Origin: an uncultured Clostridia bacterium
GTDB lineage: Bacteria > Bacillota > Clostridia > Oscillospirales > Oscillospiraceae
Assembly (NCBI GenBank): GCA_945482615.1
Contig: CALYRG010000005.1
Span: 1 to 58,277 of the forward strand
Length of the DNA: 58,277 bases
Reading direction: 5' to 3'
Shown: positions 8,283 through 27,980 of the stretch, piece after piece
Layout: each line of letters opens with the position of its first letter
How positions within the stretch are numbered: position 1 is the stretch's first letter
The notes under the pieces: model-generated
Databases searched by the model: none
The model's input: the letters and a program-made list of their open reading frames with translations, nothing else
Told to the model about the DNA's origin: nothing
Position numbers and translations under genes: made by a program

Positions 8283-9110
8283 TTACAGGGCGTCCCTTGG
8301 GCAGGCCTTGACGCACTCCATGCACAGGATGCACTCGGTGCCGTTGCGGCGGGAGCGGGCGTTGTCCGTCACGTCCACGTCCATGGGGCAGACCCGGGCG
8401 CATTTGCCGCAGTGGATGCACTTACTTTGGTCGCATTCTATCCGCACCAGAGAGAAATAGCTCATGGGCTTTAAGAAGACGGTGATGGGGCAGAGGGTTT
8501 TGCAGAAGGCCCGGTTGTCCCGGAGGGCAAAGGCAAGCCCGATTCCCAGGGCGTAGTACAATAGGTTTCCGATGACAAAAGCCCAGAACATGATTTTCTC
8601 CATGTTCCCAACCCCTGCCAGGAAAAGCCCGGCTACGAACAGAAGGGACAGGGCAAAGGTGACATACCGCAGAAAACCCGGCTTTTTCCTGGGCCCCGCG
8701 GGAACCTTGTAGGGCAGAAAGTCCAGAACCATTGCCGTCCAGCAGGCGTAGCCGCACCAGCCCCGGCCAAAGACCAGGGGGCCGAAGATCTTTGCTACGG
8801 CGTAGTGGATGGTGGCGGCCTCAAAAACGCCGGAGAACAGGTAGTACCAGAAGCCCTCAATCTGCATGTTTTCCCTGCAGATCAAGCCCAGGTAGATGAG
8901 CATATACAGCCCCACAAGAAGCTGCACCACCCGCCTTGCGTAGGGGTAGTTCCGCCGGAACAGCCACAGCCCCAGAGCAATGGAGGAGCCGATGTAGCTG
9001 AAATTCAGAAGATAGAAAAGGTTGTCCCTGGAAAGCCACAGCACCACGGCGACTGCCTCAAACAGCAGCCACAGGGCCAGGGGAAGAAGCCAGGATTTCT
9101 GTTTCGTCAT
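8283..9110 (-). CDS. Membrane polyferredoxin (NapH/YccM-like 4Fe-4S protein)
   Basis: A 275-residue protein with about five transmembrane helices in residues 1-205, a conserved CGYACWTAMV motif after the third, and two C-terminal 4Fe-4S motifs (CIHCGKCARVCP and CILCMECVKACP) from about residue 233. NapH-like proteins pass electrons across or along the membrane to redox partners; the partner is not present here. Its ATG overlaps the stop of the preceding coiled-coil gene by four bases (ATGA), so the two are co-translated. It converges on the rhodanese gene with 37 bases between stops. Confidence 0.85.
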   Translation of the reverse strand: MTKQKSWLLPLALWLLFEAVAVVLWLSRDNLFYLLNFSYIGSSIALGLWLFRRNYPYARRVVQLLVGLYMLIYLGLICRENMQIEGFWYYLFSGVFEAATIHYAVAKIFGPLVFGRGWCGYACWTAMVLDFLPYKVPAGPRKKPGFLRYVTFALSLLFVAGLFLAGVGNMEKIMFWAFVIGNLLYYALGIGLAFALRDNRAFCKTLCPITVFLKPMSYFSLVRIECDQSKCIHCGKCARVCPMDVDVTDNARSRRNGTECILCMECVKACPRDAL

Positions 9111-9328
9111 GGCAGCACCTCTTCCCGGGGCTCGTCCTCCAGAAGGCCGTAAACCCGGTACATGGTCAGAAATTGCCGATACATCAGCTTATTGCCCAGC
9201 AGCTGGCGGTAGGTGGCGGATTTTTCCTTTCCCTGGGCCTTCAGCTGCTCCAGCTGCTGCACGGTGGAGCGGTACTGCTCCTGCAGGGAAGCGAGCATCT
9301 GCTCAAATTGCTGCAATCTGTCTTCCAT
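9107..9328 (-). CDS. Small coiled-coil protein upstream of the polyferredoxin
   Basis: A 73-residue protein, mostly helical. Residues 1-45 are rich in Gln, Glu and Leu with heptad-like spacing (LQQFEQMLASLQEQY), suggesting a coiled coil; a YRQFLTMYRVYG segment and an acidic tail follow. No known family was recognised. ATG 9328 follows AGGAGGAGTCCC; the frame is open further upstream but only through the palindromic element. The 4-base overlap with the polyferredoxin gene suggests a joint role, for example as a small partner subunit. Confidence 0.7.
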   Translation of the reverse strand: MEDRLQQFEQMLASLQEQYRSTVQQLEQLKAQGKEKSATYRQLLGNKLMYRQFLTMYRVYGLLEDEPREEVLP

Positions 9329-9349
9329 GGGACTCCTCCTGGAAATGAT

Positions 9350-9521
9350 GATAAGGCAATACCGCATAATGGGGCAAGGAGATTCGGCGCGAGATTTTGG
9401 CACAAGCGAAAGTACGAAAAATGCGGGAATACTGGATGTATTTCCCATTTTTCGTACTGCACGATTGGGGCAAAAGATCCGCCGAAGCCCGCAGCTCCCA
9501 CCTAAGCGGTGTTGCCATAAA
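9350..9521. mobile_element. 172-base palindromic MITE-like element
   Basis: The two ends are imperfect inverted repeats: GGCAATACCGC (9355-9365) against GCGGTGTTGCC (9506-9516), continuing with TTCGGCG/CGCCGAA (9383-9389, 9480-9486). At the centre is a long hairpin of AGTACGAAAAATG (9411-9423) with its exact complement (9446-9458), plus 8 further inner pairs around the loop TGGAT. The two arms align along almost their whole length. The element is flanked by a 7-base direct repeat AAATGAT (9343-9349 and 9522-9528), a probable target-site duplication. It encodes no protein and lies between divergent genes. Confidence 0.7.
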
Positions 9522-9609
9522 AAATGATACCATAAAATCCGGGAAAAGGGTAGCCCTTTCCCAAAATTTGTGACACAATCGATTTACAACATGATAAGGA
9601 GGCTGCTGT

Positions 9610-9840
9610 ATGAAAAAACTCTTTGACGCTGCCGACCGCTACCTGAAAACTGCCGACTGGAAGGATATGGCACTTATCAAATTCTGCCTGTTCTCCATGG
9701 GCATTCTTGCAGGCACATACATTCCCCGGAAAAACAGGGACATTGCCCGGGGGATCGCGCTGGGTGTCTTCGCATCCACCTACATCCCGCTGATGGCGAA
9801 ATTCCTGCCCTGCCTGTTCCCGGGCAAAGCGGAGGATTGA
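9610..9840 (+). CDS. Small conserved membrane protein of unknown function
   Basis: A 76-residue protein with two hydrophobic stretches (KFCLFSMGILAGTYI near residues 24-38, and IALGVFASTYIPLMAKFLPCLF near 49-70) separated by a basic RKNRD turn. Its N-terminal KKLFDAADRYLKTADWKD is typical of a short protein family common in Clostridia that databases often mislabel as a phosphate-transporter permease. The start follows AAGGAGGCTGCTGT. It is monocistronic and ends at a strong terminator. A hairpin GGGAAAAGGG-TAG-CCCTTTCCC (9541-9562) lies in its upstream region. Confidence 0.75.
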   Translation: MKKLFDAADRYLKTADWKDMALIKFCLFSMGILAGTYIPRKNRDIARGIALGVFASTYIPLMAKFLPCLFPGKAED

Positions 9841-9859
9841 TTCCTCTACAAACAATAGA

Positions 9860-9893
9860 CGGACGGTTCAGCGTGCTGAGCCGTCCGCTTTTC
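9860..9893 (+). terminator. Rho-independent terminator
   Basis: A 12-base-pair stem (9860-9871 with 9876-9887, one G-U pair), a 4-base loop, then CTTTT. It ends the small membrane protein gene and lies between convergent genes, so it may also slow transcripts of the HD-GYP gene. Confidence 0.85.
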
Positions 9894-9904
9894 ACTGTTC
9901 GGGG

Positions 9905-11404
9905 TTATTGGGGGATATCCTCCTGGATGGTGCCGACGGCGCCCAGACAGCGGGGCGCTCCATCAAAGGCCCAGACGGAGCGGCACCGGCACCGGAAGGC
10001 GGAGCCATTGGAAAGCCGGAAGCACAGGGCAAAATCCGGATGGCCCGGGGAGGCCTGGTTCTGAGCATCCTGCCAGCGGGGAAGCGACTGGCCTGCCAGC
10101 TGCAGGACGGCCTCGTCATGCACCGGGTCGGTGATGGTACTGTGCAGATCCAGAAGCCGGGCGGCTTTGTCTGAGAGCGTCAGCATCGGCGGGTCGCAGT
10201 GGTAGACAAAGGTCATGTCACCGGCGGAGGCTTCAAAGAAGTCAGCCCGGGTCTGCTCAAACCGAAACTGGGAGATCAGCTGGTTGGAGGCGGTGAGCTC
10301 CTCGTGGAGGGAAATCTCCTCAGTAAGGTATTCCAGCTCCCGCTTTTCCCGCACCAGCGCGGGATCGGCATGCAGAGCCTGGGGCAGAGAGTCTCCCAGC
10401 TCCAGCAGACACTCCAGAAGCAATGGGTTAAAAGCGCCGCATTGTCCCCCCAGGATCATGGAAATGGCCGTCTCGTGGGAGAAGGCTTTCTTGTAGCACC
10501 GGTCGCTGGTCAGAGCATCGTACACGTCCGCCAGAGACACCACCTGGGCGGAAAGGGGGATGGCATCGCCCACCAGACCGTCGGGATAGCCCCGGCCGTC
10601 ATAGCGCTCGTGGTGCCACCGGCAGATGTCCCGGGCAGTGCGCAGAAGGGGAACCTTCTCATATTCCGGTGTTCCCTCCAGCATCCGGGCGCCCTCTGCC
10701 GGATGGGTCTTGATGACGGCAAATTCCTCCGGGGTGAGCTTGCCGGGCTTGTTGAGAATTTCATCGGGGATGCTGATTTTTCCAATATCGTGGAAGCTGG
10801 ACGCCTGACTGATCATCCGTACATCCTGCATGGTGATACCATAGCGGTTCGTCCGGGCCATCACCTGACGCAGGAGCAGCTCCGTGATCAGATTGATATT
10901 GCGCACATGCAGACCGCTTTCCTGATTTCGGAACTCTACGATCTGGCTGAGAATGGACAGCATCAGATCATAGGTCTTGGTGCGCTCATAGATTTCTTCG
11001 GCCACGGTGGCAGCCAGCCTGCGCTGCTTGTCATACAGGGCGATGGTGTTCTTGACCCGGCGTTTGACAATGAAGGAATCGAAGGGCCGGGAGATAAAGT
11101 CCGTAGCGCCCAGATCGTAGGCCCGGCTGATAAAATCGTGGCCGGTCTCGGAGGAAATGACGATCACCGGCAGATCATCGATCCAGTGCCGGCGGTTCAT
11201 GTAGCCAAGAACCTGATACCCATCGCATTCCGGCATCATCAGATCCAGCAGCATCACAGACAGCTCATGGCACTGCTTTTCCAGAATCTGGATGGCCTGG
11301 ATGCCATTTTCTGCCTCAAGAATGTCATACTGGTCTTCCAGCATACAGGACAGCAGGTCACGGTTCAGATCAGAATCGTCCACAATCAGGATTCTCGGCT
11401 TCAT
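9905..11404 (-). CDS. Response regulator with HD-GYP domain
   Basis: A 499-residue two-component protein. Residues 1-120 are a receiver domain with acidic pocket DDSD at 9-12 and phospho-acceptor Asp54 (LLDLMMP). Residues 150-330 are an HD-GYP domain with HD at 205-206, HHERYDGRGYP at 264-274 and an intact GYP triplet, the usual signs of a cyclic-di-GMP phosphodiesterase. Residues from about 355 form a helical linker followed by a divergent PAS-like sensor region. ATG 11404 (AGAGGAA upstream) begins exactly at the receiver domain. It has its own promoter. No partner kinase is adjacent. Confidence 0.88.
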   Translation of the reverse strand: MKPRILIVDDSDLNRDLLSCMLEDQYDILEAENGIQAIQILEKQCHELSVMLLDLMMPECDGYQVLGYMNRRHWIDDLPVIVISSETGHDFISRAYDLGATDFISRPFDSFIVKRRVKNTIALYDKQRRLAATVAEEIYERTKTYDLMLSILSQIVEFRNQESGLHVRNINLITELLLRQVMARTNRYGITMQDVRMISQASSFHDIGKISIPDEILNKPGKLTPEEFAVIKTHPAEGARMLEGTPEYEKVPLLRTARDICRWHHERYDGRGYPDGLVGDAIPLSAQVVSLADVYDALTSDRCYKKAFSHETAISMILGGQCGAFNPLLLECLLELGDSLPQALHADPALVREKRELEYLTEEISLHEELTASNQLISQFRFEQTRADFFEASAGDMTFVYHCDPPMLTLSDKAARLLDLHSTITDPVHDEAVLQLAGQSLPRWQDAQNQASPGHPDFALCFRLSNGSAFRCRCRSVWAFDGAPRCLGAVGTIQEDIPQ

Positions 11405-11622: not shown

Positions 11623-12342
11623 CTATGGGCGGTTTGCCAGGCCGAAGTGAAGCTCCTTCATGCCCTCCACCTGGTCACAGATGGGCTGGAGCTTGCAGGT
11701 GCCGCAGTCTGTCATCCCGGTGCTCAGAATGTGATCCAGGGCTTTGGTGATGGATTCCGTCTGCCGGGTCAGTGCCTGCAGCTCCTGGAAGGGGAAGCCG
11801 GGATCGGTGACGAAGATCAGCCGCACGGCCTGGATGGAAGGATTCTTGTGGAACTGGCGGAGCATCATCGTCCCAACGTGAGAGAAGGACAGGCCCCGGT
11901 TCAGGGCCTCCCGGCTGACCCGGGCGCTTTCCCGCCCATTGATCCGGGAGACCCGGATCATAAAGCCCTGGGGGCTGACATGGTAGCGGACGAACTCCAG
12001 CTTCTTGACGGCGTCGTATAAGGCGCTGCCCTGGGTCATGGTGCCCGGCTTCACCCGGACAAGGGCGATTCTTGCGTAGTGGGTGTCCCTGTGAATGCCG
12101 GAAAGATCCGGGCCGATGCACAGCAGCTCGTCCCTGGGGACGAAGGACGCATCTTCCGTCACCGCTGTGGCACCCAGGGCGAAAAAGCTCTGGCCGCTTC
12201 CGCCCAGCTCGTAGGCCATGTCCTGGCGGAACACCAGATTCTCCCGCCCGGCCTCCTGCCATGGCGCTTCGGGCAGGGGGGCGGCCGGGAAGGGACGGCA
12301 GAGCTGGTCGATGGCGGTGATTACCTCATCATACAGCTTCAT
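11623..12342 (-). CDS. Acetyl-CoA synthase central-domain-like protein (CODH beta family)
   Basis: A 239-residue protein. From recalled family sequence, residues 76-225 follow the central part of acetyl-CoA synthase (AcsB/CdhC): IGPD at 76-79, GFMIRVS at 126-132, then RVSREALNRGLSFSHVG (141-157), the F-x4-PSI segment (164-170) and VTD (178-180). A cysteine group C-x2-C-x5-C follows at 213, 216 and 222. In true ACS the same place holds the first A-cluster cysteines, but the fourth cysteine and the whole catalytic C-terminal domain are absent, so it cannot be a complete ACS. It is the last gene of the cluster; its ATG overlaps the stop of the small membrane protein by one base. A scaffold or metal-handling role is inference. 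Confidence 0.7.
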   Translation of the reverse strand: MKLYDEVITAIDQLCRPFPAAPLPEAPWQEAGRENLVFRQDMAYELGGSGQSFFALGATAVTEDASFVPRDELLCIGPDLSGIHRDTHYARIALVRVKPGTMTQGSALYDAVKKLEFVRYHVSPQGFMIRVSRINGRESARVSREALNRGLSFSHVGTMMLRQFHKNPSIQAVRLIFVTDPGFPFQELQALTRQTESITKALDHILSTGMTDCGTCKLQPICDQVEGMKELHFGLANRP

Positions 12343-12509
12343 TACAGGTGCTTATCCCGCTTGATGTTGTCGTAGTGCTTCAGGAACAGAGGCTCCAGCG
12401 CCGCGGTGAGCTTCATGTCCAGGTTGAAAAAGTACACCGTGAAGGTGAGGACGAACAGGGCCGCCGCCACCGCCAGGACAATGAGAACGATTTTCAGGAG
12501 CAGATACAT
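12342..12509 (-). CDS. 55-residue single-span membrane protein in the dehydratase cluster
   Basis: A short gene found by reading between its neighbours. ATG 12509 is preceded by AGGAGGATTTGT, and the product begins MYLLLKIVLIVLAVAAALF, one hydrophobic helix of about 25 residues, followed by a basic/acidic tail ending KRDKHL. The stop TAA shares a base with the next ATG (TAATG), and the gene lies 12 bases after the activator gene, so it is placed as an operon member. No family is recognised. It may anchor part of the complex at the membrane. Confidence 0.7.
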   Translation of the reverse strand: MYLLLKIVLIVLAVAAALFVLTFTVYFFNLDMKLTAALEPLFLKHYDNIKRDKHL

Positions 12510-12521
12510 ACAAATCCTCCT

Positions 12522-13319
12522 TTACCTTTGGGCCATGCCCTTCTGGCGGGCAAATTCCGCAGCGCCCAGAGCGCCGATGAGCTGGGGGTCCACCGGCAGG
12601 TCGATGACCTTCAGCTTGAGCACCTTCTCGATGGCGGCCTTCAGGCCCGCATTCTTGGCACAGCCGCCGGTGAGGGTGATTCTGTCCACGGCCCCGGCCT
12701 TCTTGGCCATGACGAAGCAGCGCTTGGCAACGGACAGCTGGATGCCCGCGGCAATCTCGTCCATGGGCTTGCCCTCGCCTACCAGGGAGATGACCTCGGA
12801 CTCGGCGAATACCGTGCACTGGGCGGTGATGGGGATGACGTTCCTTGCCTTCAGGGACAGCTGGGAAAACTCGGTCAGATCCATTTCAAAGGCTCTTGCC
12901 ATGGCCTCATAAAACCTACCGGTACCGGCGGCACACTTGTCGTTCATGGCAAAGTTCAGCACGGTGCCGTCGGTGTCCACGGCAATGCCCTTCACGTCCT
13001 GGCCGCCGATGTCGATGATGGCCTTGACGCTGGGATCGGCCACGTGCACGCCCATGGCGTGGCAGCTGATCTCGGAGATGTTTTCGTCGGCAGCGGGAAC
13101 CTTGTTGCGTCCATAGCCGGTGCCTACCAGATAGGCAAGATCCATGGCGCTTTTCAGCTCCGGAACCTGGGCCACGGCCTGGGCAATGGCATCCTCACAG
13201 CTGAGCACCGCGTTGATGCGGCTTCTCAGGGTGACGTTTGACACCATCCTGCCGGTCTCGTCCAGAATGACGCATTTTGTGTAGGTGGAACCGGAATCAC
13301 ATCCGCCGTAATACTTCAT
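12522..13319 (-). CDS. 2-hydroxyacyl-CoA dehydratase activator-type ATPase (BadF/BadG/HgdC family)
   Basis: A 265-residue ASKHA-fold ATPase. The N-terminal phosphate loop GCDSGSTYTKC, the IDIGGQDVKGI motif and MNDKCAAGTGRF are all present; the conserved cysteines coordinate a [4Fe-4S] cluster between two subunits in HgdC and BcrA/D. Such activators hydrolyse ATP to push one low-potential electron into the dehydratase or reductase component. ATG 13319 has AAAGGAG at the right distance, better than the GTG at 13325. It lies 18 bases after the larger HgdAB-like subunit, the expected partner. Confidence 0.92.
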   Translation of the reverse strand: MKYYGGCDSGSTYTKCVILDETGRMVSNVTLRSRINAVLSCEDAIAQAVAQVPELKSAMDLAYLVGTGYGRNKVPAADENISEISCHAMGVHVADPSVKAIIDIGGQDVKGIAVDTDGTVLNFAMNDKCAAGTGRFYEAMARAFEMDLTEFSQLSLKARNVIPITAQCTVFAESEVISLVGEGKPMDEIAAGIQLSVAKRCFVMAKKAGAVDRITLTGGCAKNAGLKAAIEKVLKLKVIDLPVDPQLIGALGAAEFARQKGMAQR

Positions 13320-13337
13320 GTTCACTTCTCCTTTGCA

Positions 13338-14900
13338 TTACCAAGAGTGTTCATCATCGATGATTTCCAGAGTGGGATCCAGAGGCTCTTCCTGCAGGAC
13401 ACTTCTCATATAGCGGTTGACCTGATCCCGGACGCCCTGCCGGGAGGTGATCCGGGGATCGAACAGGTCATGGGTGACCCACACCAGGTGGATGCCCTTC
13501 TCCCGGGCCTTTTCCTCAAACATGCCGTGCATACCGTCCAGAGCTTTGCAGCTCATGTGCTCCCAGAGGATGACCATGTCGGCGTTGAACTCCTCCACGA
13601 AGTCCCACAGCTCATCCAGCAGCACCTTGTAGCCGCCGTGGGTGCGGTTGCGCATGATCATGTTCTCCGTCAGCCAGGCGATGTCGTAGATGGCCTGCTC
13701 CCGGCCCTCGGGGGTGTTTTCCTCGCAGAGCATCTTGGTGGACACCATGGACAGCATGTCCGTCAGAGGCACAATGCCCCAGCAGTTGAGAATCCACAGC
13801 AGGAAGTCCATGTAGAAGTGGGACTGCACGCCCCAGACGATGGCCCGGTGGCGGTACTCCTTTGCCATCTTTCGCTTTGCCTTGTAGGCCTGCTGGGCAA
13901 GCTTCATGATCTTCCGGTCGGTCTCCACAAAGGCGGGAATCTTGCCGCAGATGGCCATGTAGTTGGTCTCGGTGTACAGGGCCAGGTTGGAGCCGAAGAC
14001 CTGGGGGTAGTCGGTCTTGTTCATGTCCAGCCAGTCCATACGGTAGCGGGTGGAGATGTTGACCCGCTTGGCGCACTCGAAGTAGTAATCCCAGTCCCAC
14101 TTTTCCCCGGTGTGCTCCTCGATAAAGGCGATGGCGTTGCGCACCTCCTGGGCGGCGTACTCCTGCACGTCGTCTTCCCGGTGGCGCAGGGGGGCGGCCA
14201 GCTGGAAGCAGGGAATGCCGTCCTCCAGCTCCAGCCGCTTGGAGATGACGCCGTTGCCCATCAGGGAGCCGTCGCAGGTGGTGTTGCACTGGATGGCGCA
14301 GGCACCCAGAACGGGGGCGTCGTCGTCGATGGACACACCGGCCTCCGCCTCCGGCATGGGGCACACGTCACCGGCAAGGCCAAATTCCTGGGCCACATCG
14401 ATGTAGTGCTCTGCCGCGTGCTGGTTCAGCAGCACGGAGACGTAGGTGGAGGGGGTCTCCCGGCTCAGTCCCTTGACCGTGGGGAAGCCCATGAGCACGG
14501 CGGTCATTTCGTTTTCGTCCACCAGCACAACCTTCTTGGAAAATTCCTTGTCGTTGCCGATGCGCCGGTCTCCCCGGAACAGGTTATCCAGGAGCTTTGC
14601 CACGTCCTCAATGACCAGATCCTGCTCCAGGTGGCAGATGCGCAGATACTCGTCCCGCAGGCCCTGGGTGTGCCGGTCCACCATCATGGGAACGGCCAGG
14701 TAGTTGGCCATCCAGCGGTAGCGGAACATGGCCTTGATGTTTCGGGGCTTGATGATAAAGCCGGCCAGGGTGCCCATAATGTGCAGCCAGCGCCAGTAGT
14801 CGTACATGGTGTCCCGGAAGCCACGCCATTCCCGGCGCTTGCGAACCTTGCCTCCGGTATAGAAATCGCCCAGGCGATCCATTCCCACTTCCTTAGCCAT
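13338..14900 (-). CDS. 2-hydroxyacyl-CoA dehydratase family subunit (HgdB-like, large)
   Basis: A 520-residue protein of the HgdA/HgdB/BcrB/BcrC family, about 100 residues longer than typical subunits, with an extra basic N-terminus (residues 1-60). Family cysteines are seen in GDVCPMPE, CAIQCNTTCDGS and HMSCKAL, the last in the position that binds the [4Fe-4S] cluster. These subunits catalyse ATP-driven radical dehydration or reduction of acyl-CoA or related substrates. The actual substrate is not known. ATG 14900 follows AGGGAGGTGCGAAAA and overlaps the previous stop by 8 bases. Confidence 0.85.
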   Translation of the reverse strand: MAKEVGMDRLGDFYTGGKVRKRREWRGFRDTMYDYWRWLHIMGTLAGFIIKPRNIKAMFRYRWMANYLAVPMMVDRHTQGLRDEYLRICHLEQDLVIEDVAKLLDNLFRGDRRIGNDKEFSKKVVLVDENEMTAVLMGFPTVKGLSRETPSTYVSVLLNQHAAEHYIDVAQEFGLAGDVCPMPEAEAGVSIDDDAPVLGACAIQCNTTCDGSLMGNGVISKRLELEDGIPCFQLAAPLRHREDDVQEYAAQEVRNAIAFIEEHTGEKWDWDYYFECAKRVNISTRYRMDWLDMNKTDYPQVFGSNLALYTETNYMAICGKIPAFVETDRKIMKLAQQAYKAKRKMAKEYRHRAIVWGVQSHFYMDFLLWILNCWGIVPLTDMLSMVSTKMLCEENTPEGREQAIYDIAWLTENMIMRNRTHGGYKVLLDELWDFVEEFNADMVILWEHMSCKALDGMHGMFEEKAREKGIHLVWVTHDLFDPRITSRQGVRDQVNRYMRSVLQEEPLDPTLEIIDDEHSW

Positions 14901-16089
14901 TTTTCGCACCTCCCTGGAGCTTTTTGATTTCAATGCTCTCTACGAAGGCCTGCACCCGGGTGCGCAGCTGGCCGGACACCCCGATGGAGTAGGGGCGGTC
15001 CACCGAAAGCACCGGATAGCCGAAGTCCTCCCGGAGAACGTGGGAGCCTACCATCTTTTCGTAGGCCCAGGGGTCGCAGAACTTTACCTGCTCGTAGATG
15101 ATGCCGTCGGCGCCGTATTCTTTTGCCAGGCCCGCCACATAGCTGCGCCGCTGCTGAATTTTCGCCTGGTTCATAAACCGCGGGCACTGGCCCCGGTACA
15201 TGTACTGGCGGCAGATCTGGGTCAGGGCGTCCTCGTCATCTGTCAGGACGATGGGGTCTCTGCCGGGGAAGGAGCCGTAGCAGTACCGGTCGGCGCAGAC
15301 GTAGGCGCCGGAGTCCTCGATGAGCTTCACAACGTCCACATCGTCCATTTCCGAGCCAACCAGAACCACCCTCGCCCGGAAGGGACTGCGCGCATCCGGC
15401 TGCCGGGTCTTCAGCTCCTCCAGGGTTTGCTCCAGCTTGTCGATGATAAGGTACTTGGGGGCGGCGTAGGTGGCCATGGTGATGATGTGGTATTCATAGC
15501 CGGTGATGGTGGGCTTTTCTCCCTTGCGGTATTCCCCGATGGCCCGGATGAGGCGGCACACCCGGTTGTGCTCCTCCACGGCTTTGCGGATGGCAGCGTC
15601 GGAGGTGTCGATGCCGTAGTGCTGAGAAAGGGGCTTCAGAATGTGGTTTTTGCACTGCAGCACGTACAGGTTCAGGCCGTTGTCGTCGGCCTTCATGGGA
15701 ACCTCCATGTACTCGTAGAAGAACTTCTCCTTGTCCATGGTTTTCAGCAGCTCCATATTCTCTACGCACCGGTTCATCATGGAGCAGCCGTCTGGGGTGA
15801 TGATGCAGTCGGCGAAGTTGAAGCCGCCCTCGATAGCCCGCTCCAGCAGCGCCCGGGAGTATTCGCACAGGAAGCTGGTCATGTAGTAGGTGCCCATCTC
15901 CATGGAGCCGGTGCGGGGCGCCCGCAGCCGGGCGGAGAAGGTTCCTCCCAGATTGAGCAGCGGCTCCGGTACGTTCTCGCAGGTATAGGCAATGCAGAGC
16001 TTTCCCTCGCCCTGGGCCTGACGCACCAGATCGTTATGGGCATCCTCCAGCAGCCGCTCAAAGTAGTATAGATGCTTTAAGTCCTTCAT
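14893..16089 (-). CDS. 2-hydroxyacyl-CoA dehydratase family subunit (HgdA-like)
   Basis: A 398-residue protein, normal length for the family. Conserved features are CENVPEPLL near residue 36, CSMMNRCVEN near residue 101, and the C-terminal QVKFCDPWAYEK with PVLSVDRPY, which hold the cluster-binding cysteines. It should pair with the 520-residue neighbour to form a heterodimer activated by the BadF-type ATPase. Its start overlaps the end of the CooC-like gene by four bases (ATGA), tying the metallochaperone ATPase to the dehydratase in one translation unit. Confidence 0.88.
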   Translation of the reverse strand: MKDLKHLYYFERLLEDAHNDLVRQAQGEGKLCIAYTCENVPEPLLNLGGTFSARLRAPRTGSMEMGTYYMTSFLCEYSRALLERAIEGGFNFADCIITPDGCSMMNRCVENMELLKTMDKEKFFYEYMEVPMKADDNGLNLYVLQCKNHILKPLSQHYGIDTSDAAIRKAVEEHNRVCRLIRAIGEYRKGEKPTITGYEYHIITMATYAAPKYLIIDKLEQTLEELKTRQPDARSPFRARVVLVGSEMDDVDVVKLIEDSGAYVCADRYCYGSFPGRDPIVLTDDEDALTQICRQYMYRGQCPRFMNQAKIQQRRSYVAGLAKEYGADGIIYEQVKFCDPWAYEKMVGSHVLREDFGYPVLSVDRPYSIGVSGQLRTRVQAFVESIEIKKLQGGAKNG

Positions 16090-16874
16090 TTCGGGTTGCC
16101 TCCTTCCAGAATCCCCAGGTTGACAAGGGCCGTCTCCACCTTCCGGTAGATTTCGGTGGTGGGTTCCAGACTGTAGACAGTGGAGCCCAGCATGTCGCTC
16201 ATGGACATGGCCTTGTCATCGCCGATGCAGGAAAGCAGGGGAATGTCCCCGGTGGAGAGTCTGTCCTGCATGGAAAGCTCCGGCATCCGGTTGACGATCA
16301 GGCCGGCCTTTTCAAAGTGAACCAGATTCTTAGCCACGGCGTGGATGGTCTGCACCACCTGCAGACCCTTCCGGCTGGCATCGGACACCAGCAGCAGGTG
16401 TGTCACCCGCTCCATCACCCGGCGGTTGATCTGCTCGATGCCTGCCTCGCCGTCAATGACCACATAGTCGAAGCTTCCGGCAATCAGGCGGATAATCTCC
16501 TTGAGGTAGGCGTTGACCTTGCAGTAGCAGCCGGCGGACTCCGGCCTGCCGATGGCCAGGAAGGAGACGTTGCCCCGCTCCACCAGAGCGTCGAACAGAC
16601 GGTACTTGGCCTCCCCCAGCATTTCGATGGCGGCGCCGGTGTCGCCGTTTTCCGCGGAGGCCACGAACTCCCGGCGGATGTCGTCCACGGTGGACTCGGC
16701 TTCCATGCCCAGGGCGGTGGCAAGGCCAACAGCCGGGTCGGCATCGATGGCGAGAATCCGCTTGTCCGGATAGCGATCCGCCAGCAGCCGGACGGTCAGG
16801 GCGGAAATAGAGGTCTTCCCCACGCCGCCCTTGCCCACCAGGGCGATGACGGTGGTATTGTTCGCTTCTTTCAT
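16086..16874 (-). CDS. CooC-like nickel-insertion ATPase
   Basis: A 262-residue MinD/SIMIBI-class ATPase with a deviant Walker A at residues 13-21 (GKGGVGKTS), Walker A' Asp in AIDADPAVG (43-50) and VVIDGEAGIEQ. Cys116 and Cys118 form the C-x-C motif that in CooC binds a metal ion between two subunits. CooC loads nickel into CO dehydrogenase, and the related AcsF acts on acetyl-CoA synthase. No CODH or full ACS occurs in the window. Start ATG follows TTGGAGGGATT. A strong hairpin separates it from the upstream HypA-like gene. Confidence 0.88.
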   Translation of the reverse strand: MKEANNTTVIALVGKGGVGKTSISALTVRLLADRYPDKRILAIDADPAVGLATALGMEAESTVDDIRREFVASAENGDTGAAIEMLGEAKYRLFDALVERGNVSFLAIGRPESAGCYCKVNAYLKEIIRLIAGSFDYVVIDGEAGIEQINRRVMERVTHLLLVSDASRKGLQVVQTIHAVAKNLVHFEKAGLIVNRMPELSMQDRLSTGDIPLLSCIGDDKAMSMSDMLGSTVYSLEPTTEIYRKVETALVNLGILEGGNPK

Positions 16875-16889
16875 AATCCCTCCAAGGTT

Positions 16890-16916
16890 TGAAAGCCCCG
16901 GGACCCGGGGCTTTCA
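16890..16916 (-). promoter_or_regulatory. Perfect 13-base-pair hairpin between hypA-like and cooC-like genes
   Basis: A perfect palindrome (TGAAAGCCCCGGG and its complement around a single central base) in the gap between two operon genes. No T-run follows on the minus strand, so it probably acts as an RNA-stability or processing element rather than a full terminator. Confidence 0.6.
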
Positions 16917-16924
16917 TGATTCGG

Positions 16925-17269
16925 CTAAAGGATGGTGATATCTTTGATGTTGACTTCGTTTCCGGTTCGCAGCCAGGTCTCACCGCTTCCGCAGTAGGGG
17001 CAGATTTTGCCCTGGGGTACGGTGTCGTAGTCCTTGCCGCAGCCGTCGCAGTGGGTGACGGCGTGGATTTCCTCCACCAGCAGCTGGCAGTCGTTCAGCA
17101 GGGGAACGCGCTTACAGTTCCAGTTCCACACGTCGATGAGGTAGTCGGGGATAATGGTGGACACCTGACCGATCTGCAGGGTCACGGAGTGAACCCGCTG
17201 GGCCTGGTTCTCCTTGGCCACAGCCACCACACTGTCGGCGATGTGAAACACTACTCCAAGCTCATGCAT
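16925..17269 (-). CDS. hypA: HypA-like hydrogenase/nickel metallochaperone
   Basis: A 114-residue HypA-family protein. It starts MHELG, so His2, the nickel ligand, is present. The zinc site is intact: CDGC at 74-77 and CPYC at 90-93. HypA delivers nickel to NiFe-hydrogenase (and urease in some species). No hydrogenase or urease genes are in the window, and it sits 3 bases after the FAD/FeS oxidoreductase and before the CooC-like gene, so its client may be the neighbouring dehydratase-like or ACS-like protein. That client is inference. Confidence 0.87.
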   Translation of the reverse strand: MHELGVVFHIADSVVAVAKENQAQRVHSVTLQIGQVSTIIPDYLIDVWNWNCKRVPLLNDCQLLVEEIHAVTHCDGCGKDYDTVPQGKICPYCGSGETWLRTGNEVNIKDITIL

Positions 17270-17272
17270 GGC

Positions 17273-20146
17273 TCAGTCCTTCTTCTTGAAGAGGCCGGAG
17301 ATGTCCTCGCCCAGGCGCTTGACGGCCATGGAGGCAACCACCTTGATCTTGTCCTCGGCACGGCGCATGTCGGTGCATTCGGGGTGATCCCGCTTCAGGT
17401 GGATGGCATCGAAGACACACTTGGTGGTGCACACGCCGCAGCCGATGCACTTGTTGGGGTCTACCCAGCTGGCGCCGCAGCCCAGGCAGCGGGCGGTCTC
17501 GATCTTCACCTGCTCCTCGGTGAGGGTCTTGTGGGCATCCCGGAAGGAATTCTTCGGGATGCTCTCGTCCATTCCGGCCTCCTGACGGCCTGCGTGGTCG
17601 TAGCTGGGGACGCTGATGTTGTCCTTGTCCAGCATGACGAAGTCCCGGCGGTTCCGGCCGATGGTCATGTCCGCGCCCTTGTGCACATACCGGTGCAGGG
17701 ACTCGGCGGCGCACTTGCCCTCCTCGATGGCGTCGATGAGGAACTTGGGGCCGTGGTACACGTCGCCGCCCACGAAGATGTCGGGCTCGGCGGTCTGGTA
17801 GGTCAGAGGATCGGCCACAGGATAATTGCCGTGGTGGAATTCCACCTTGGTGCCCTCCAGGAGGCGGCCCCATTCAATGGCCTGACCGATGGCGAAGACC
17901 ACATGGTCGGCCTTCAGCTCCATGGTCTCGTTTTCATCGTACACAGGGCTGAATTTTCCGGTTTCGGGGTCGATGGTGCGCAGGCACTTCTTGAAGATGA
18001 CGGCGGTGACATGGCCGTTTTCGTCCTGTACCAGCTCCTTGGGGCCCCAGCTGTTGCAGATCTCGATGCCTTCTTCCAGGCTTTCGGCGATCTCATCCCG
18101 GGAGGCGGGCATGGTGGCACGGTCTTCCAGGCAGACCATGCTGACCTTGGCAGCGCCGAAGCGGGAGGCGGTCTTGGCGCAGTCCACGGCAACGTTGCCG
18201 CCGCCGATGACGATCACGTCGCCTTCCATCTTCTGGGTCTCGTCCTCCAGAGCGTGGTGCAGGAAGTCCACGGCGATGCTGGTGCCCGCAGCGTTCTCCC
18301 CGGGGACACCGGGCAGGCGGCCGCCCTGGCAGCCGATGGCAACGTAGAAGGCCTCAAAGCCCTGCTCCCGCAGCTGGGGGATGGTCACGTCCCTGCCCAC
18401 CTCTACGCCGCAGCGGATGTCCACGCCAAGCTGGCGCAGCACATCGATTTCGGCGTCAATGACATCCTTCTCCAGCTTGAAGGAGGGGATGCCGTAGGTC
18501 ATCATGCCGCCGGGCTTGGCGCTCTTTTCAAACACGGTGGGCTTGTAGCCGATGGTGGCCAGGTAGTAGGCAGCGGACAGACCCGCGGGGCCGCCGCCGA
18601 TGATGGCGATTTTCTGGGCCCACTGCTTGACCCGGTTGGAGGCGATGACCACCGGCGGGATGTAGCGGGTCTCGGCCTTCAGATCCTGCTCGGCAATGAA
18701 CTTTTTCACGGCGTCGATGGAGACGGCCTGGTCGATGGAGCCACGGGTACAGGCGTCCTCACAGCGCTTGTTGCAGACCCGGCCGCAGACGGCGGGGAAG
18801 GGGTTATCCTTCTTGATGAGGGCCAGAGCCTCGGTGTACTTGCCCTGAGCGGCCAGCTTCAGGTAGCCCTGAACGGCGATGTGGGCGGGACAGGCGGTCT
18901 TGCAGGGGGCGGTGCCCTTGTCGTAGCAGTTGACCCGGTTGTTGTCCCGGTAGTCGGGATCCCAGTGCTCCGGGCCCCATTTCAGGCCGTGGGGCAGCTC
19001 GTGCTTGGGATATTCCACGACCTTGCCTTCCTTGTCGCACAGCTTCTGGCCCAGCTTCACGGCACCGGCGGGGCAGTACTCCACGCACTTGCCGCAGGCC
19101 ACGCACTTGTCCCGGTCAACCTCCGCAGTGTAGGCGGAGCGGGACAGGTTGGGGGTGTTGAACAGCTGAGAGGTACGCAGGGCGTTGCAGATCTTTACGT
19201 TGCAGTTGCAGATGCCGAAGATCTTGTTCTCGCCGTCGATGTTGGTGACCTGGTGGACGAAGCCATTGTCCTCGGCCACCTGGAGGATGTGCATGGCCTC
19301 TTCATAGGTGATGTCGTGGCCCTTGCCGGATTCCCGGCAGTAGTCGGCAAAGTCGCCCACGCCGATACACCAGGAGGAGGGATCGTCCGCGCAGCCCTCA
19401 CCCATGGCGGCCCGGCTGGCCCGGCAGGAGCACTGGCCCACGCCGATGTGGCCCTCGTACTTTTTCAGCCAGTAGGACAGGTGCTCCAGATCCACGGAGG
19501 TGTTTTCCATCTCGATGGCCTTTTCCACGGGGATGACGTGCATACCCACGCCGCCGCCGCCGGGAGGCAGCAGATGCGTGACGCCCGCCAGGGGGATGTA
19601 GGTCATCCGCTCGAAGAAGTAGCCCACGTCGGGGTGCTCCTGCAGGCGCTTGTTGTAGTTGGAGGTCTCGCCACGATCGTTGTAGGAAGGGTTTTCGCTG
19701 AGGTTGTCCGCCTCCTCCATGTTGAACATCTCGGCGGAGCCGGGGACGAACATGGTCAGGATGTACCGCCGCTCGGAGGGAGGTGCGGTGCGGCCGTTGT
19801 GGTCGTAGTGGTAGCCGTAGTCGAATTCCAGCAGACCGATGTAGGCCATCTCCTCCAGAAGCTTTTCAAACTTCTCCCGGCCTTCCTCCGGAATCTTGTT
19901 CATCTTCATCAGCTGGGGGACGGTGTAGGGAACCCGCACGTCCATGGACAGGGCTACGTCGGCCATCTCGTCGGTGAGGATGGCGGCCAGGCCCCAGTAT
20001 TCGGGGTCGTCGGCGGTGATGCCCTTGAGCTTGTGGGCCACCACATCCGTGACCTTCCGGCCCAGCTTCAGAATCTTTTCTCTGGGGGCGGGATCTCCCT
20101 TGCAGGGGGGATTGAGCGCACGTTTTTTCAGTTGTTCATCAATCAT
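17273..20146 (-). CDS. Multidomain 4Fe-4S/FAD NAD(P)H oxidoreductase (GltD-like)
   Basis: A 957-residue soluble electron-transfer protein. Residues 1-340 form a helical N-terminal region with cysteine groups at 239-241 (CSC), 252, 260, 270 and 313-320. A ferredoxin motif CVACGKCVEYCP lies at 348-359. The GltD-type FeS entry (Cys415, 419, 454, 458, 462, 466) is followed by an FAD dinucleotide fold GGGPAG at 517-522 and an NAD(P)H fold with VIGGGNVAVDCAK. A C-terminal ferredoxin pair ends it (CLGCGASW and CIGCGVCTTKC). It probably supplies electrons from NAD(P)H. ATG 20146 (AAGGAGTGGAAATC upstream) starts the operon; the longer frame uses a TTG inside the -35 box. Confidence 0.87.
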   Translation of the reverse strand: MIDEQLKKRALNPPCKGDPAPREKILKLGRKVTDVVAHKLKGITADDPEYWGLAAILTDEMADVALSMDVRVPYTVPQLMKMNKIPEEGREKFEKLLEEMAYIGLLEFDYGYHYDHNGRTAPPSERRYILTMFVPGSAEMFNMEEADNLSENPSYNDRGETSNYNKRLQEHPDVGYFFERMTYIPLAGVTHLLPPGGGGVGMHVIPVEKAIEMENTSVDLEHLSYWLKKYEGHIGVGQCSCRASRAAMGEGCADDPSSWCIGVGDFADYCRESGKGHDITYEEAMHILQVAEDNGFVHQVTNIDGENKIFGICNCNVKICNALRTSQLFNTPNLSRSAYTAEVDRDKCVACGKCVEYCPAGAVKLGQKLCDKEGKVVEYPKHELPHGLKWGPEHWDPDYRDNNRVNCYDKGTAPCKTACPAHIAVQGYLKLAAQGKYTEALALIKKDNPFPAVCGRVCNKRCEDACTRGSIDQAVSIDAVKKFIAEQDLKAETRYIPPVVIASNRVKQWAQKIAIIGGGPAGLSAAYYLATIGYKPTVFEKSAKPGGMMTYGIPSFKLEKDVIDAEIDVLRQLGVDIRCGVEVGRDVTIPQLREQGFEAFYVAIGCQGGRLPGVPGENAAGTSIAVDFLHHALEDETQKMEGDVIVIGGGNVAVDCAKTASRFGAAKVSMVCLEDRATMPASRDEIAESLEEGIEICNSWGPKELVQDENGHVTAVIFKKCLRTIDPETGKFSPVYDENETMELKADHVVFAIGQAIEWGRLLEGTKVEFHHGNYPVADPLTYQTAEPDIFVGGDVYHGPKFLIDAIEEGKCAAESLHRYVHKGADMTIGRNRRDFVMLDKDNISVPSYDHAGRQEAGMDESIPKNSFRDAHKTLTEEQVKIETARCLGCGASWVDPNKCIGCGVCTTKCVFDAIHLKRDHPECTDMRRAEDKIKVVASMAVKRLGEDISGLFKKKD

Positions 20147-20168: not shown

Positions 20169-20278
20169 CGGCAGATGGCAGAGGATTTTGTGCCATTTGC
20201 ATGAGAATCTGCCGGATTTTTGGCAAAATGTGTATATTCTCCTGAAAATAGAATAAACAAAAAAGGAACAGATTGCAA
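20169..20278 (-). promoter_or_regulatory. Promoter and structured leader of the dehydratase/CooC cluster
   Basis: Minus strand: TTGCAA (20273-20278), 17-base spacer, TATTCT (20250-20255), start near 20243. The roughly 97-base leader can fold into an 8-base-pair stem (20207-20214 with 20169-20176) enclosing a TGGCA/TGCCA hairpin (20191-20195 with 20176-20180), ending shortly before the ribosome binding site. Confidence 0.6.
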
Positions 20279-20311
20279 GCGACAAAAAGAAAGATTTGTT
20301 GCTTTTTCGGT

Positions 20312-20328
20312 ATCCTCCCGGAGGGGAT
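20312..20328. promoter_or_regulatory. Possible TetR operator between divergent promoters
   Basis: A 17-base near-palindrome, ATCCTCCCGGAGGGGAT, lies midway between the cluster promoter and the tetR promoter. It is the best operator candidate seen, but the match is imperfect and nothing proves binding. Confidence 0.35.
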
Positions 20329-20343
20329 GCTCTGGAGGCCCGC

Positions 20344-20371
20344 TTGCATTTCCTCAGAAGTATGGTATAAT
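20344..20371 (+). promoter_or_regulatory. Promoter of the TetR-type regulator
   Basis: Plus strand: TTGCAT (20344-20349), 16-base spacer, TATAAT (20366-20371). A second TATAAT lies at 20378-20383. Confidence 0.6.
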
Positions 20372-20404
20372 ACAATATATAATCGGATCGTGGGGGGTAT
20401 GCAT

Positions 20405-20944
20405 ATGGGAAAGAACACCACTTCTTCGCTGCTCAGGGAATGCATTGTGCAGGGCCTGCTGCTCCTGCTGCAGGAAAAGCCCCTGGAGGACATCTCCGTC
20501 AAGGAGATTGTGGAAAAGGCCGGGGTCAACCGATCCACCTACTACCGGCATTTCCGGGACAAGGAGGAGGTCGCCCGTCATTTCTACCGCCTGCGGCTGG
20601 ATGAAGCCCTGGCCACTGCCTACCAGGGGATCACGCCCCTTGACTACCTGGCGGGCATTTTTGCGCGCTTTCTGCAATACCGGGAGGAGCTGCTCCTGCT
20701 GGAAAAGCACAATCTGACCTACCTGCTGCTGGTGGAGATGAACTCCCGGATTCCCCAGGTTCACAGCCCCCGGGAGGGAGCCGCCCACTCCCTGCACTGC
20801 AACTACCACATCGGCGGGGTGTTCAACAGCTTCCGCTACTGGCTCAGCGAGAATATGGCCACCGCCCCCGAAAAGCTGGCGGCCCAGTGCATGACCTTCC
20901 TGCCGGAAAACTTCGCCCCCATGCTGCTGAAACGGCGCGAATAG
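20405..20944 (+). CDS. TetR/AcrR family transcriptional regulator
   Basis: A 179-residue regulator. The N-terminal helix-turn-helix is clear: PLEDISVKEIVEKAGVNRSTYYRHFRDKEE at about residues 26-55. The C-terminal ligand domain resembles the TetR_C_33/DhaS-like type (HIGGVFNSFRYWLSE near residue 139). ATG 20405 has GGGGGG seven bases upstream; ATG 20399 is too close to it. It is divergent from the dehydratase/CooC cluster across a 257-base intergenic region, so it is likely the cluster's regulator. Confidence 0.85.
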   Translation: MGKNTTSSLLRECIVQGLLLLLQEKPLEDISVKEIVEKAGVNRSTYYRHFRDKEEVARHFYRLRLDEALATAYQGITPLDYLAGIFARFLQYREELLLLEKHNLTYLLLVEMNSRIPQVHSPREGAAHSLHCNYHIGGVFNSFRYWLSENMATAPEKLAAQCMTFLPENFAPMLLKRRE

Positions 20945-22981: not shown

Positions 22982-25900
22982 TTATCCTTTGTAGTCCGCG
23001 TCGTACTGATCGCCGTAAACGTAGTGGATGATGTTCCAGACATATTCATAGGCGGCAGAGCCGGGGGTGAAGGCATTGCGGTTCTGCCAGGCAATGTAGC
23101 CGATGCTCCGGTAGACGATACCGCCGTAGATGGTGACGGTTTCGCCCGTTTCATCGGCCAGGATGATGTAGGGCCGCATGGCGATGTCCTCCCTGCAGTC
23201 CTCATCCGTAAAGCCCACCAGCACGTTGGTGTACTGAATCAGGCTGCCGGTATCCTTGAAGATGGGGTCGGACACCCCCTTCTTATAGGCGTGATTGGAT
23301 TTCACACCGGTATCGCCCAGCACCAGGGACACACTGCTCCCGGACGTACCCGCCCGGCACAGGGCCGTGCCGTATTCCACCAGGGTGTAGCCGGCAAGCC
23401 CCTCGCCCATCAGGGCGGAGCGGGTACTCTTATTGATGGAGGTAATCATCCGGATGCCCTTGTTGCCGGTAATGCGGATGGAGCAGCCGGAATACTGCAG
23501 CAGGTTCTGAAGCTCCGGCAGGTGCTGTACGGTCATGCCGGAATCGGTCTTTTCCACCCGATAGACATTCATCCCGGTGGGATACTGGGTGTGCCGGTCA
23601 CCGGAGCCGGTGTTGAAGGAATAGGTCACGAGAATCGAAGAGGCGCCTTCCGGCAGAACCACATAGGAATTTCCGGCATCGTCCGTCTGAACGGAGACGG
23701 GGACGCCGTCAATCCAGACGGTGCTCTGGTTTTCCAGCTCCGTTCCTGTGAGCACAAGACGGTTTCCGCTGTAGACCAGGGGCCTGGTTTCTTCCTGCTG
23801 GCAGACAGCGCATTTCCGGGTTTCCACGCCGTCCGCCTCAGGGGTGGCGGGGGTGGTGACTTCCCATTCGCCCCAGCTATGCTCCGAGCATACGGCTTTC
23901 CAGGTGATGGTTCCGCCGTAGTTCTGGAGCTTATCGGATGTCCACGTGTTATTGCCGAAAGGATAGTAGGCGGTGGCGGTTATTCCGTTGAAAGCATAAT
24001 TGATGATGGAGGGGGCATCCCCGGCAAAGGTAATCGTCTGAAGCTTGGAACAGGAAGCGAAGGCGTACATGGACACCTGTGTTACATTTTTCGGAATGAT
24101 GATGCTGCTAAGCTCTGTGCAGCCGCTGAACGTACAGTAGCTGATGAAGGTTACGCTGTCCGGAATGGTGACGCTGGTGAGCTTGGTGCACTCCTGGAAC
24201 GCATACATGGGAAGCTGGGTCACACCCTCCGGGATGGTGATGCTGGTCAGATTGGGGCAGAGGGAGAAAGCACTCTCGCCAATGCTGGTTACACCCTCCG
24301 GGATGGTAACACCGGCAAGACTGCAGCAGCAGAACGCCGAGCAGCCTATGGTGGTCACACTGTCCGGGATGGTGTATTCCCCGGAGAAGGGCCTTGGGAA
24401 GTGAATCAATGTGGACTTGTCTTTATTGAACAGCACACCGTACTGATCGCTGGAGTAGTTCGGGTTATCCGGGTCTACAGAAATTCCCTCCAGTTTAGCA
24501 CATCCAGAAAACGCACCCTGGCCAATGGTGGTTACGCTTGCCGGAATGCTGACTTCGGTGAGACTTTCACACCAAACGAACGCATTCTCATCAATGGTGG
24601 TCACGCCGTTGGGGATGTTGATGTGGGACAGCTTGCTGCAGGATTTGAATGCATATTCTCCGATACTGGTCATGCTGTCCGGGAGGGTGACACCGGTCAG
24701 GTTGCTGCAGTCATAGAACGCATAGGTTCCAATGCTGGTTACGCCTTCCGGGATGGAAACATCGGTCAGATTGAGACAATTCCCAAACGCACGACTGCCA
24801 ATGCTTGTTGCGCCTGACTCTATGACGACATGTTTTATCTTTGCTGTGCTGCTAAACCAGGGAACGTCCTCGCAATATTCATAATCGGCCATTGCTCCGG
24901 TGCCGGAGATGGTAAGAGTCCCGTCCGCTGTCAGCACCCAGGTCAGGTTTTCGCCGCAGGTGCCGCCAAGTGCGCCGCAGCGGGTGCAGACGCCGTCCAC
25001 AAAGTTGTGTCCTGCAGGGATGGCAACGGTGGTCAGCACCTTTGTGCCAGTTTCATCCTCAAAATTCTTGTCGCAGACTGAGCAGTGATAATGTGCCACA
25101 ACGCCGTCCTGGGTACAGGTGGCCGCTTGGGCTGCAACAGGGGAAAGGGTGTGGGCAGCAGGGATGGAGACGGTGGTCAGCTCTGTTGTGCCAGTTTTAT
25201 CCGCATAATTCTTGCCGCAGACAGAGCAGTGGTAGTGTTCCCTGACACCGGCTTCCGTGCAGGTGGCTTCTTTGGCATCCACCTTGGTGAGGGTGTGACT
25301 GGTAGTAGGAACTTCTTCCTGGGCGACCAATACCATGCCGCAGACAGAGCAGTGGCTGCCCTGGGTGAGGCCGGTTTCCGTACAGGTGGCGGCCTTGGCT
25401 TCATCAATGACTTCCGTATGGGTCATTCCGCCGGTGCATCCTTCCACCCAGGTGACATAGCTGCCGTAGCTGTCCCGGATCTCCTGCGTCCAGGAGGTGT
25501 TCCCGTGGGGGTAATAGGCGGTTACCGCGGAGTTGAAAATATCGTCTGTTCCGGTAAAGCCATCCCCCAGGAACTGCACAGTGGTCAGCTTGGAGCAGTC
25601 ATAGAAAACTTCGCGTCCGATGGAGCTGACCCCATCGGGAATGGTGACAGAGGTCAGACCGGTGCAGCCCTTGAATGTGAAGTCCGCAATGGAGGAGATC
25701 CCCTTGGAAATCGAAATGGAGGTCAGACCGGTGCAGCCGGAGAAAGCGGAGCTTCCCATGGAGGTTACGCTGTCGGGAATGGTGACAGAGGTCAGACCGG
25801 TACAGCCCTGGAAGGCGCAGCTTTCGATGGAGGAGACCTTATTGGGAATGGTGATAGAGGTCAGACTGGAACAGCCATAGAAAGTGTTGGTTCTGATGAT

Positions 25901-27937: not shown

Positions 27938-27980
27938 ATTGCTTCCTCCTACGTTCCAAGGGTATAACACAGTACTTTAC

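Follow-up and report, generated by a model that had tools for sequence, protein, structure and literature searches.

A clostridial gene cluster that joins a predicted ATP-driven low-potential reductase to carbon monoxide dehydrogenase-type nickel genes

The gene cluster and its two modules

Eight adjacent genes lie on the minus strand at 11623–20146 of a 58,277 nt stretch of DNA (contig CALYRG010000005.1, positions 1 to 58,277; assembly GCA_945482615.1, an uncultured Clostridia bacterium), which was analysed as a whole and is called the window here. Six of them form a core which we read, with moderate confidence, as an ATP-driven low-potential reductase of the superfamily of class I benzoyl-CoA reductase, double-cubane cluster protein (DCCP) and 2-hydroxyacyl-CoA dehydratase (HAD), assembled with nickel machinery of the type known for carbon monoxide dehydrogenase (CODH). 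All eight open reading frames were verified. In the direction of transcription they encode an IsrA-like FAD/NAD(P)/Fe-S oxidoreductase of 957 amino acids (aa) with an N-terminal six-cysteine (Cys6) site (17273–20146), a HypA-like nickel chaperone with His2, Glu3 and two CxxC motifs (16925–17269), a CooC-like P-loop ATPase (16086–16874), a BzdN/DCCP-like HgdB subunit of 398 aa (14893–16089), a BzdO/HadB-like HgdA subunit of 520 aa (13338–14900), an ASKHA-type ATPase activase similar to BcrA and HgdC (12522–13325), a 55-aa protein, read as a single-pass membrane protein (12342–12509), and a 239-aa protein resembling acetyl-CoA synthase (ACS; 11623–12342). An earlier note on this DNA had reported overlaps of 1–8 bases among these genes, which agrees with the reading frames and coordinates: HgdB and CooC share four bases (16086–16089), HgdA and HgdB eight (14893–14900, with the ATG of HgdA at 14900), and the ACS-like and membrane protein genes the single base 12342. 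Its family assignments largely stand, as the Pfam cut-offs were passed and CooC was recognised through the structure 3kje; two of them shifted, since the HgdAB pair resembles BzdNO and DCCP and not dehydratases, and the 957-aa protein is IsrA-like.

The eight genes constitute two modules and not one system. The core module consists of the CooC-like ATPase, HgdB, HgdA, the activase, the 55-aa membrane protein and the ACS-like protein; the second, IsrA-like protein plus HypA, is found also away from the core. This partition emerges from a comparison of 28 sources, namely the window, seven of nine loci from named contigs and 20 further stretches. Two loci were left out: L003, in which the core is cut by the contig end and which retains HgdA, an 86-aa piece of the activase, the membrane protein and the ACS-like gene, and L006, with 4,973 bases, in which the ACS-like gene alone was found. 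Activase and ACS-like gene are present in all 28 sources, CooC in 27, HgdB and HgdA in 26 each, while FAD protein and HypA occur in only 11. One of the loci from named contigs, L010 of isolate 1XD21-13, contains all eight genes. The shortfalls of the core are explained by L008, which is cut by the contig end and there lacks CooC, and by L047, where the HgdBA pair is located elsewhere in the genome. Thus, the recurrence of the gene set is not due to chance.

The same picture emerged from a survey of 296 genomes, all belonging to a single family that we take to be Lachnospiraceae. The short ACS-like gene was found in 21 genomes (a 22nd match, in G451, falls within a full ACS), and HgdA (E < 1e-30) in exactly the same 21, so that about 7% of the sampled genomes carry the core. 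Among 293 genomes drawn from the whole class the ACS-like search matched eight, six of them with the short form, the window's own genome included. Two acetogens, Eubacterium callanderi and Acetobacterium malicum, also possess the ACS-like gene, the only one looked at there. The genomes compared are mostly drafts, and the source assembly of the window comprises 1.82 Mb and is 71% complete. Eight of the 21 core genomes hold two or three HgdA genes and one full-length ACS-like gene; in this count G458 figures with two copies, since two of its three HgdA matches are one gene split over contigs C39 and C66. One further arrangement was seen in G507 (L164, 3234–9067), where an IsrA-like gene comes immediately after an extra set of HgdB, HgdA and membrane protein and the rest of the core is absent. 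Pairwise distances of the core genes correlate between loci (Pearson 0.97 for HgdA and HgdB, 0.85 for activase and ACS-like protein) and so do those of the FAD protein with the core (0.87–0.93 in 10 loci); such correlations would largely be expected from shared ancestry alone.

HgdAB, its activase and the membrane protein

Both Hgd subunits and the activase belong to the benzoyl-CoA reductase/HAD/DCCP superfamily. With the HGD-D domain (PF06050, cut-off 28.4) HgdB scores 288 and HgdA 119 bits, and the activase reaches 195.7 bits with BcrAD_BadFG and 211.8 with TIGR00241 (cut-off 125.4). Activase residues C131 and C170 are invariant in 28 rows. In HgdB the six cysteines C37, C75, C102, C270, C302 and C338 are invariant in 30 aligned rows and align with the double-cubane ligands C36, C73, C100, C263, C293 and C327 of BzdN, and three cysteines of HgdA align with the [4Fe-4S] ligands of BzdO. 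Two positions are particularly informative: C37 and C270 are cysteines in BzdN and DCCP, whereas the dehydratase beta subunit has other residues there. Judged by these alignments, HgdAB is predicted to be an ATP-driven reductase of the benzoyl-CoA reductase/DCCP kind rather than a plain dehydratase, and the six double-cubane cysteines disfavour the dehydratase reading that the earlier note had allowed.

If HgdAB were an ordinary 2-hydroxyacyl-CoA dehydratase and the neighbouring metal genes had nothing to do with it, PF06050 subunits with a single activase would be expected too, as in HAD systems, and the HgdA model indeed matches HadBC and BzdO equally well. Besides the two cysteine positions, the near-perfect linkage to CooC and the ACS-like gene speaks against this explanation, as do the families recurring in at least three loci, none of which appears by eye to belong to an acyl-CoA pathway. 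We therefore consider it improbable.

The more specific family models are reached by neither subunit. The double-cubane reductase equivalog NF040772 (cut-off 350) gives 131 bits for HgdB and 33 for HgdA, the bzdN equivalog 88 of 454 bits, and the HadB and HadC equivalogs 19 of 750 and 68 of 700 bits, respectively. Compared with BzdNO and its activase (PMC11971306), the pair reductase predicted here is alike in having a pair of PF06050 subunits, one with six double-cubane and the other with three [4Fe-4S] cysteines, as well as a BcrA-type activase. It differs in the single activase gene, the 520-aa HgdA, a serine at the position of the catalytic His131 of BzdO (30 of 30 HgdA rows), and the presence of CooC, the ACS-like protein and the membrane peptide as partners. 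DCCP (6eno, 7yyl) with its ATPase shares the fold, and the six HgdB cysteines align with it, but DCCP is the homodimeric product of one gene (PMC11971306) whereas here two unlike subunits are encoded, and the NF040772 score is below its cut-off. The 2-hydroxyisocaproyl-CoA dehydratase HadBC (3o3m) shares fold and activase type and lacks cysteines matching HgdB C37 and C270. As a possible nickel site, C373 of HgdA was considered as a retained distal double-cubane ligand and was rejected: it meets a non-cysteine of MbdO in the profile alignment, and does not stand opposite HgdB C270 in the alignment of HgdA with HgdB, which is itself weak.

The 55-aa membrane protein, with the conserved tail NLDMKL..EP..KHYD..KRDK, has no family match in Pfam or NCBIfam. 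A same-strand copy is located at most 1.4 kb downstream of 37 of the 42 HgdA copies, extra HgdBA pairs included.

The ACS-like protein

With 29.1 bits for CdhC (PF03598, cut-off 24) this protein is a true relative of ACS that corresponds to its middle domain; the full-length ACS family is not reached (22.4 of 800 bits). At its C-terminus a CxxCx5C-x9-H motif places cysteines at the position of the A-cluster, and the histidine has the spacing of the fourth ligand in ACS (1oao, 3git). In contrast to these enzymes, the N-terminal domain, the third domain and the CGC nickel site are all missing. As a detector of full ACS the profile of the short protein was discarded, because it matched G451 but missed G577, G361 and G254, which all encode full ACS; due to this unreliability we make no claim that ACS is absent from any genome. 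Two full ACS genes in tandem were noticed in the CODH locus of G306 (L174, 10433–14865).

The strict co-occurrence of this gene with HgdA invites a reversed assignment of roles, in which HgdAB and its activase are the ATP-driven reductive activator of a nickel centre in the ACS-like protein, and the latter is the catalyst or a regulator. A parallel exists in the activation of methyl-coenzyme M reductase, which reduces the nickel of cofactor F430, and the kinship to ACS with cysteines at the A-cluster position would fit. This assignment is nonetheless rather unlikely: no CGC nickel site is found among the 236 homologues listed, and one ACS-like gene per several HgdBA pairs suggests that the HgdAB pairs are the clients.

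Core genomes and the presence of CODH, hydrogenase and urease

Searches for CODH and NiFe hydrogenase covered 27 genomes, from which three with full ACS (G260, G193 and G451) were dropped; the remaining 24 have the short ACS-like gene, among them the window's own. In that assembly, which is 71% complete, there was no match to CODH or to the NiFe large subunit and no urease alpha subunit, as the earlier note had stated for the window. Among the 24 genomes 18 are without CODH over the cut-off; the six others include G255, G159, G306 and G399, and two of the six matches score only 479–492 bits. A NiFe large-subunit match is likewise lacking in 18, the other six showing partial matches to positions 1–70 of 508 in frames of 364–373 aa, and 23 of 24 are without urease. 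The idea of a metal-assembled, probably nickel-linked, ATP-driven system, for which restriction to genomes encoding CODH/ACS had been named beforehand as a refutation, is thus upheld with respect to CODH and urease. For NiFe hydrogenase this holds in the main part, with the six partial matches as a reservation. Beside the CODHs of 580–800 bits, a separate CODH-like type of 478–534 bits with frames of about 670–730 aa was observed in G270, G325, G434, G436, G474, G387, G577, G462, G254 and G327.

The occurrence of CODH maturation genes together with part of an ACS, where no CODH exceeds the cut-off, could also point to an unconventional CO/CO2 or acetyl-CoA enzyme which replaces CODH/ACS in some species. 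One lead in this direction is a Lachnospiraceae acetogen described, in the accessible part of PMC7000372, as having CO dehydrogenase activity and no CODH/ACS homologue. We regard such a replacement as very unlikely, as the core coexists with CODH in six of the 24 genomes and the A-cluster CGC is missing throughout the homologues mentioned above.

CooC and its association with CooT and a His-rich protein

For the CooC of the window Pfam gives only a ParA/ArsA-like ATPase. A sequence search matched it to Carboxydothermus CooC (3kje, E 3.2e-12) with both cysteines of the CxC metal motif aligned; the deviant P-loop of the CooC family is present too, and the motif reads CYC in 27 of 27 core copies. 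In a phylogenetic tree, which held five rows of each kind of CODH locus, the core copies form one clade (98/94), and together with the CooC preceding CODH they are split at 100/100 from the ATPase located between CODH and ACS.

An unplanned finding was a His-rich protein of about 90 aa encoded near three core loci. A profile built from these three seeds (G461, G346, G298) matched 47 of the 296 genomes, 38 without and nine with the core. Among the 38 core-less carriers the gene is at most 5 kb from CODH in 31 (in one of these, G518, the CODH piece is under the cut-off) and at most 20 kb in 33. Eight carriers combine the core with the lack of a CODH over the cut-off, and in seven of them the gene is located within 5 kb of a core gene instead. 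With the seed genomes included, it occurs in 9 of 21 core genomes and 38 of 275 others (Fisher p 0.002). Furthermore, in all seven core genomes a CooT gene (PF10133, over the cut-off) stands beside it; the protein begins with Met-Cys, and Cys2 of CooT is a nickel ligand in Rhodospirillum rubrum according to the accessible part of PMC6006190. The order His-rich gene, CooT, in two cases an extra gene, CooC and CODH is found in five acetyl-CoA-pathway loci (G451, G306, G577, G361, G254). In G505 one strand carries the His-rich gene, CooT, CooC, HgdB, HgdA, activase, membrane protein and ACS-like gene, and in L053, L057 and L059 one strand carries the ACS-like gene, the His-rich gene, CooT and a flavin ene-reductase (PF00724 for L053, by BLAST cluster for the two others).

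The resemblance to the cooCTJ set for nickel insertion into CODH, as far as this is described in the available text of PMC6006190, extends over the CxC of CooC, Cys2 of CooT and the presence of a small protein rich in histidine; in G505 these three genes share a strand with the core. Two differences were noted: in seven genomes no recognised CODH is served, and the His-rich stretch is N-terminal, whereas it is C-terminal in R. rubrum CooJ.

IsrA-like protein and HypA

The 957-aa protein contains Fer4_20 and Pyr_redox_2 above the Pfam cut-offs. Its residues C239, C241, C260, C313, C315 and C320 are invariant in nine rows and include two CxC pairs 74 residues apart. IsrA, a putative isoprene reductase, has such a Cys6 site with CxC at 180/182 and 254/256, equally 74 apart, in the portion of PMC10134865 at hand; measured against these printed positions, the protein shows the features of IsrA clade 9, a Cys6 site with two CxC and a HypA neighbour. 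The FAD/FeS layout is shared as well. The length differs (901 aa in IsrA), as does the location of the gene adjoining the core. In the same source 73% of 988 IsrA homologues are near HypA, 56% near HypB and 21% near TetR genes. A TetR-type regulator (PF00440, 36.8 bits) was noted in the window at 20273–20944 on the plus strand, divergent from the IsrA-like operon.

An N-terminal profile of the IsrA-like protein matched 88 of the 296 genomes, 68 of them strongly; the 20 weak matches (best E above 1e-30) were dropped. Strong matches occur in 16 of 21 core genomes and in 52 of 275 others (Fisher p 1e-7), and this enrichment shows the two modules to be associated but separable. No locus combines the two kinds of neighbours: where CooT and the His-rich gene are found, the main core is not accompanied by the IsrA-like protein and HypA, and vice versa.

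HypA scores 96.2 bits with PF01155 (cut-off 28.9) and does not reach the equivalog TIGR00100 (64.8 of 88.1 bits). It is missing in 4 of 24 core genomes (G175, G306, G531, G298), and these same four are also without HypB over the cut-off and without a strong IsrA-like match; in G457, the fifth core genome lacking IsrA, HypA stands beside a partial NiFe-type match on contig C153. Thus, HypA follows the IsrA-like proteins within the 296-genome family. Its client is likely the IsrA-like protein, and HypA is no evidence for nickel in HgdAB.

The earlier note had made HypA a part of the HgdAB system, with the nickel of HgdAB matured jointly by HypA and CooC and its electrons supplied by the FAD protein. 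The adjacency of all eight genes in the window, the enrichment of the IsrA-like protein in core genomes, and HypB directly before CooC on the same strand in four loci (L007, L010, L011, L046) are in its favour, and the last finding means that Hyp proteins may be shared with the core. Yet the absence pattern of HypA, its general proximity to IsrA homologues and the IsrA-like genes with HypA away from the core (L126, L128, L168) make this joint maturation doubtful, and as the nickel donor of HgdAB in the reading preferred here HypA was ruled out by that absence pattern. The FAD protein may equally be a partner ene-reductase as an electron source. In G505 (L170, 4828–9070) an IsrA-like gene adjoins a gene for a LarC-type nickel insertion protein (PF01969, 470 bits). 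The window's own genome has a tandem HypB pair (L119, contig C14, about 8893–10205) with no nickel enzyme recognised beside it by eye; such pairs were also seen in G311, G538, G331, G505, G469 and G346.

Proposed function of the core

Returning to the core as an ATP-driven reductase with CODH-type nickel machinery, the following course may be envisaged by analogy with the known members of the superfamily. The activase would take an electron from a small donor and push it with ATP into an [8Fe-9S] double cubane of HgdB, from where it would pass to an open-site [4Fe-4S] cluster of HgdA, the place of substrate reduction. The small membrane protein may tether HgdAB. CooC, in some genomes with CooT and the His-rich CooJ-like protein, and the truncated ACS-like protein would be an assembly or activation set shared by one to three HgdBA cassettes per genome, which most likely installs or activates a nickel-containing centre. 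As a flavo-Fe/S reductase in its own right, associated with the core and dependent on HypA for maturation, the IsrA-like protein would either provide electrons or reduce the product. If we may guess, the partner flavoenzymes, IsrA-like here and a PF00724 ene-reductase elsewhere, hint at the reduction of unsaturated compounds.

That the metal is nickel we infer from the CODH-type gene set, that is, from gene linkage; with genes for CooT and a CooJ-like protein adjoining the core in other genomes, nickel is now better supported than in the earlier note. We tentatively go one step further and suggest a new class of nickel enzymes in gut anaerobes without CODH: an ATP-driven double-cubane reductase, whose catalytic or activating centre would contain nickel inserted by CODH-type CooC/CooT/CooJ on an ACS-derived scaffold, with HgdBA cassettes that could be exchanged according to substrate.

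Several observations weigh against nickel or against a shared assembly set. Only 7 of the 21 genomes have CooT and the His-rich gene close to the core, and the window showed neither of them; a NiCo riboswitch was found neither in the window nor in 8 of 20 compared loci. The three profile seeds contribute to the seven close associations of the His-rich gene with the core, and upon their exclusion 4 of 5 remain. In G192 a distance of 4.2 kb separates this gene from an extra HgdBA pair, and CooC is not its neighbour; in G458 the core is 14 kb away, and in G306, which has both core and CODH, the gene is located by CODH. Nickel binding by the CooC of R. rubrum is not tight, as stated in the accessible part of PMC6006190, and CooC alone is therefore no proof of nickel. 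To the missing CGC of the ACS-like homologues comes a cysteine tail modelled at a pLDDT (predicted local distance difference test score) below 50. Finally, one extra HgdBA cassette, in G469 (L163), has its own activase, and a shared set is firm for the ACS-like gene only.

In open-licence literature the gene combination was described in no title or abstract among the matches listed, and the words "dehydratase" and "HypA" do not occur in the accessible part of a survey of CODH genomic contexts (PMC13056359). If the core is a nickel enzyme, it adds to a short list, provides a function for the CooC and CooT genes found here in the absence of CODH, and links ATP-driven reduction by double cubanes with the nickel world of CODH/ACS, both operating at very low potential. 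For reductive metabolism of the gut that still lacks an explanation, the core is a concrete candidate open to testing.

Other features of the window

Further along the minus strand, 22982–27970 encodes a surface-type protein of 1662 aa with, judged from its translation, many short leucine-rich repeats. On the plus strand, a bacterial RNase P RNA is located at 57936–58277, where it is cut by the end of the window.

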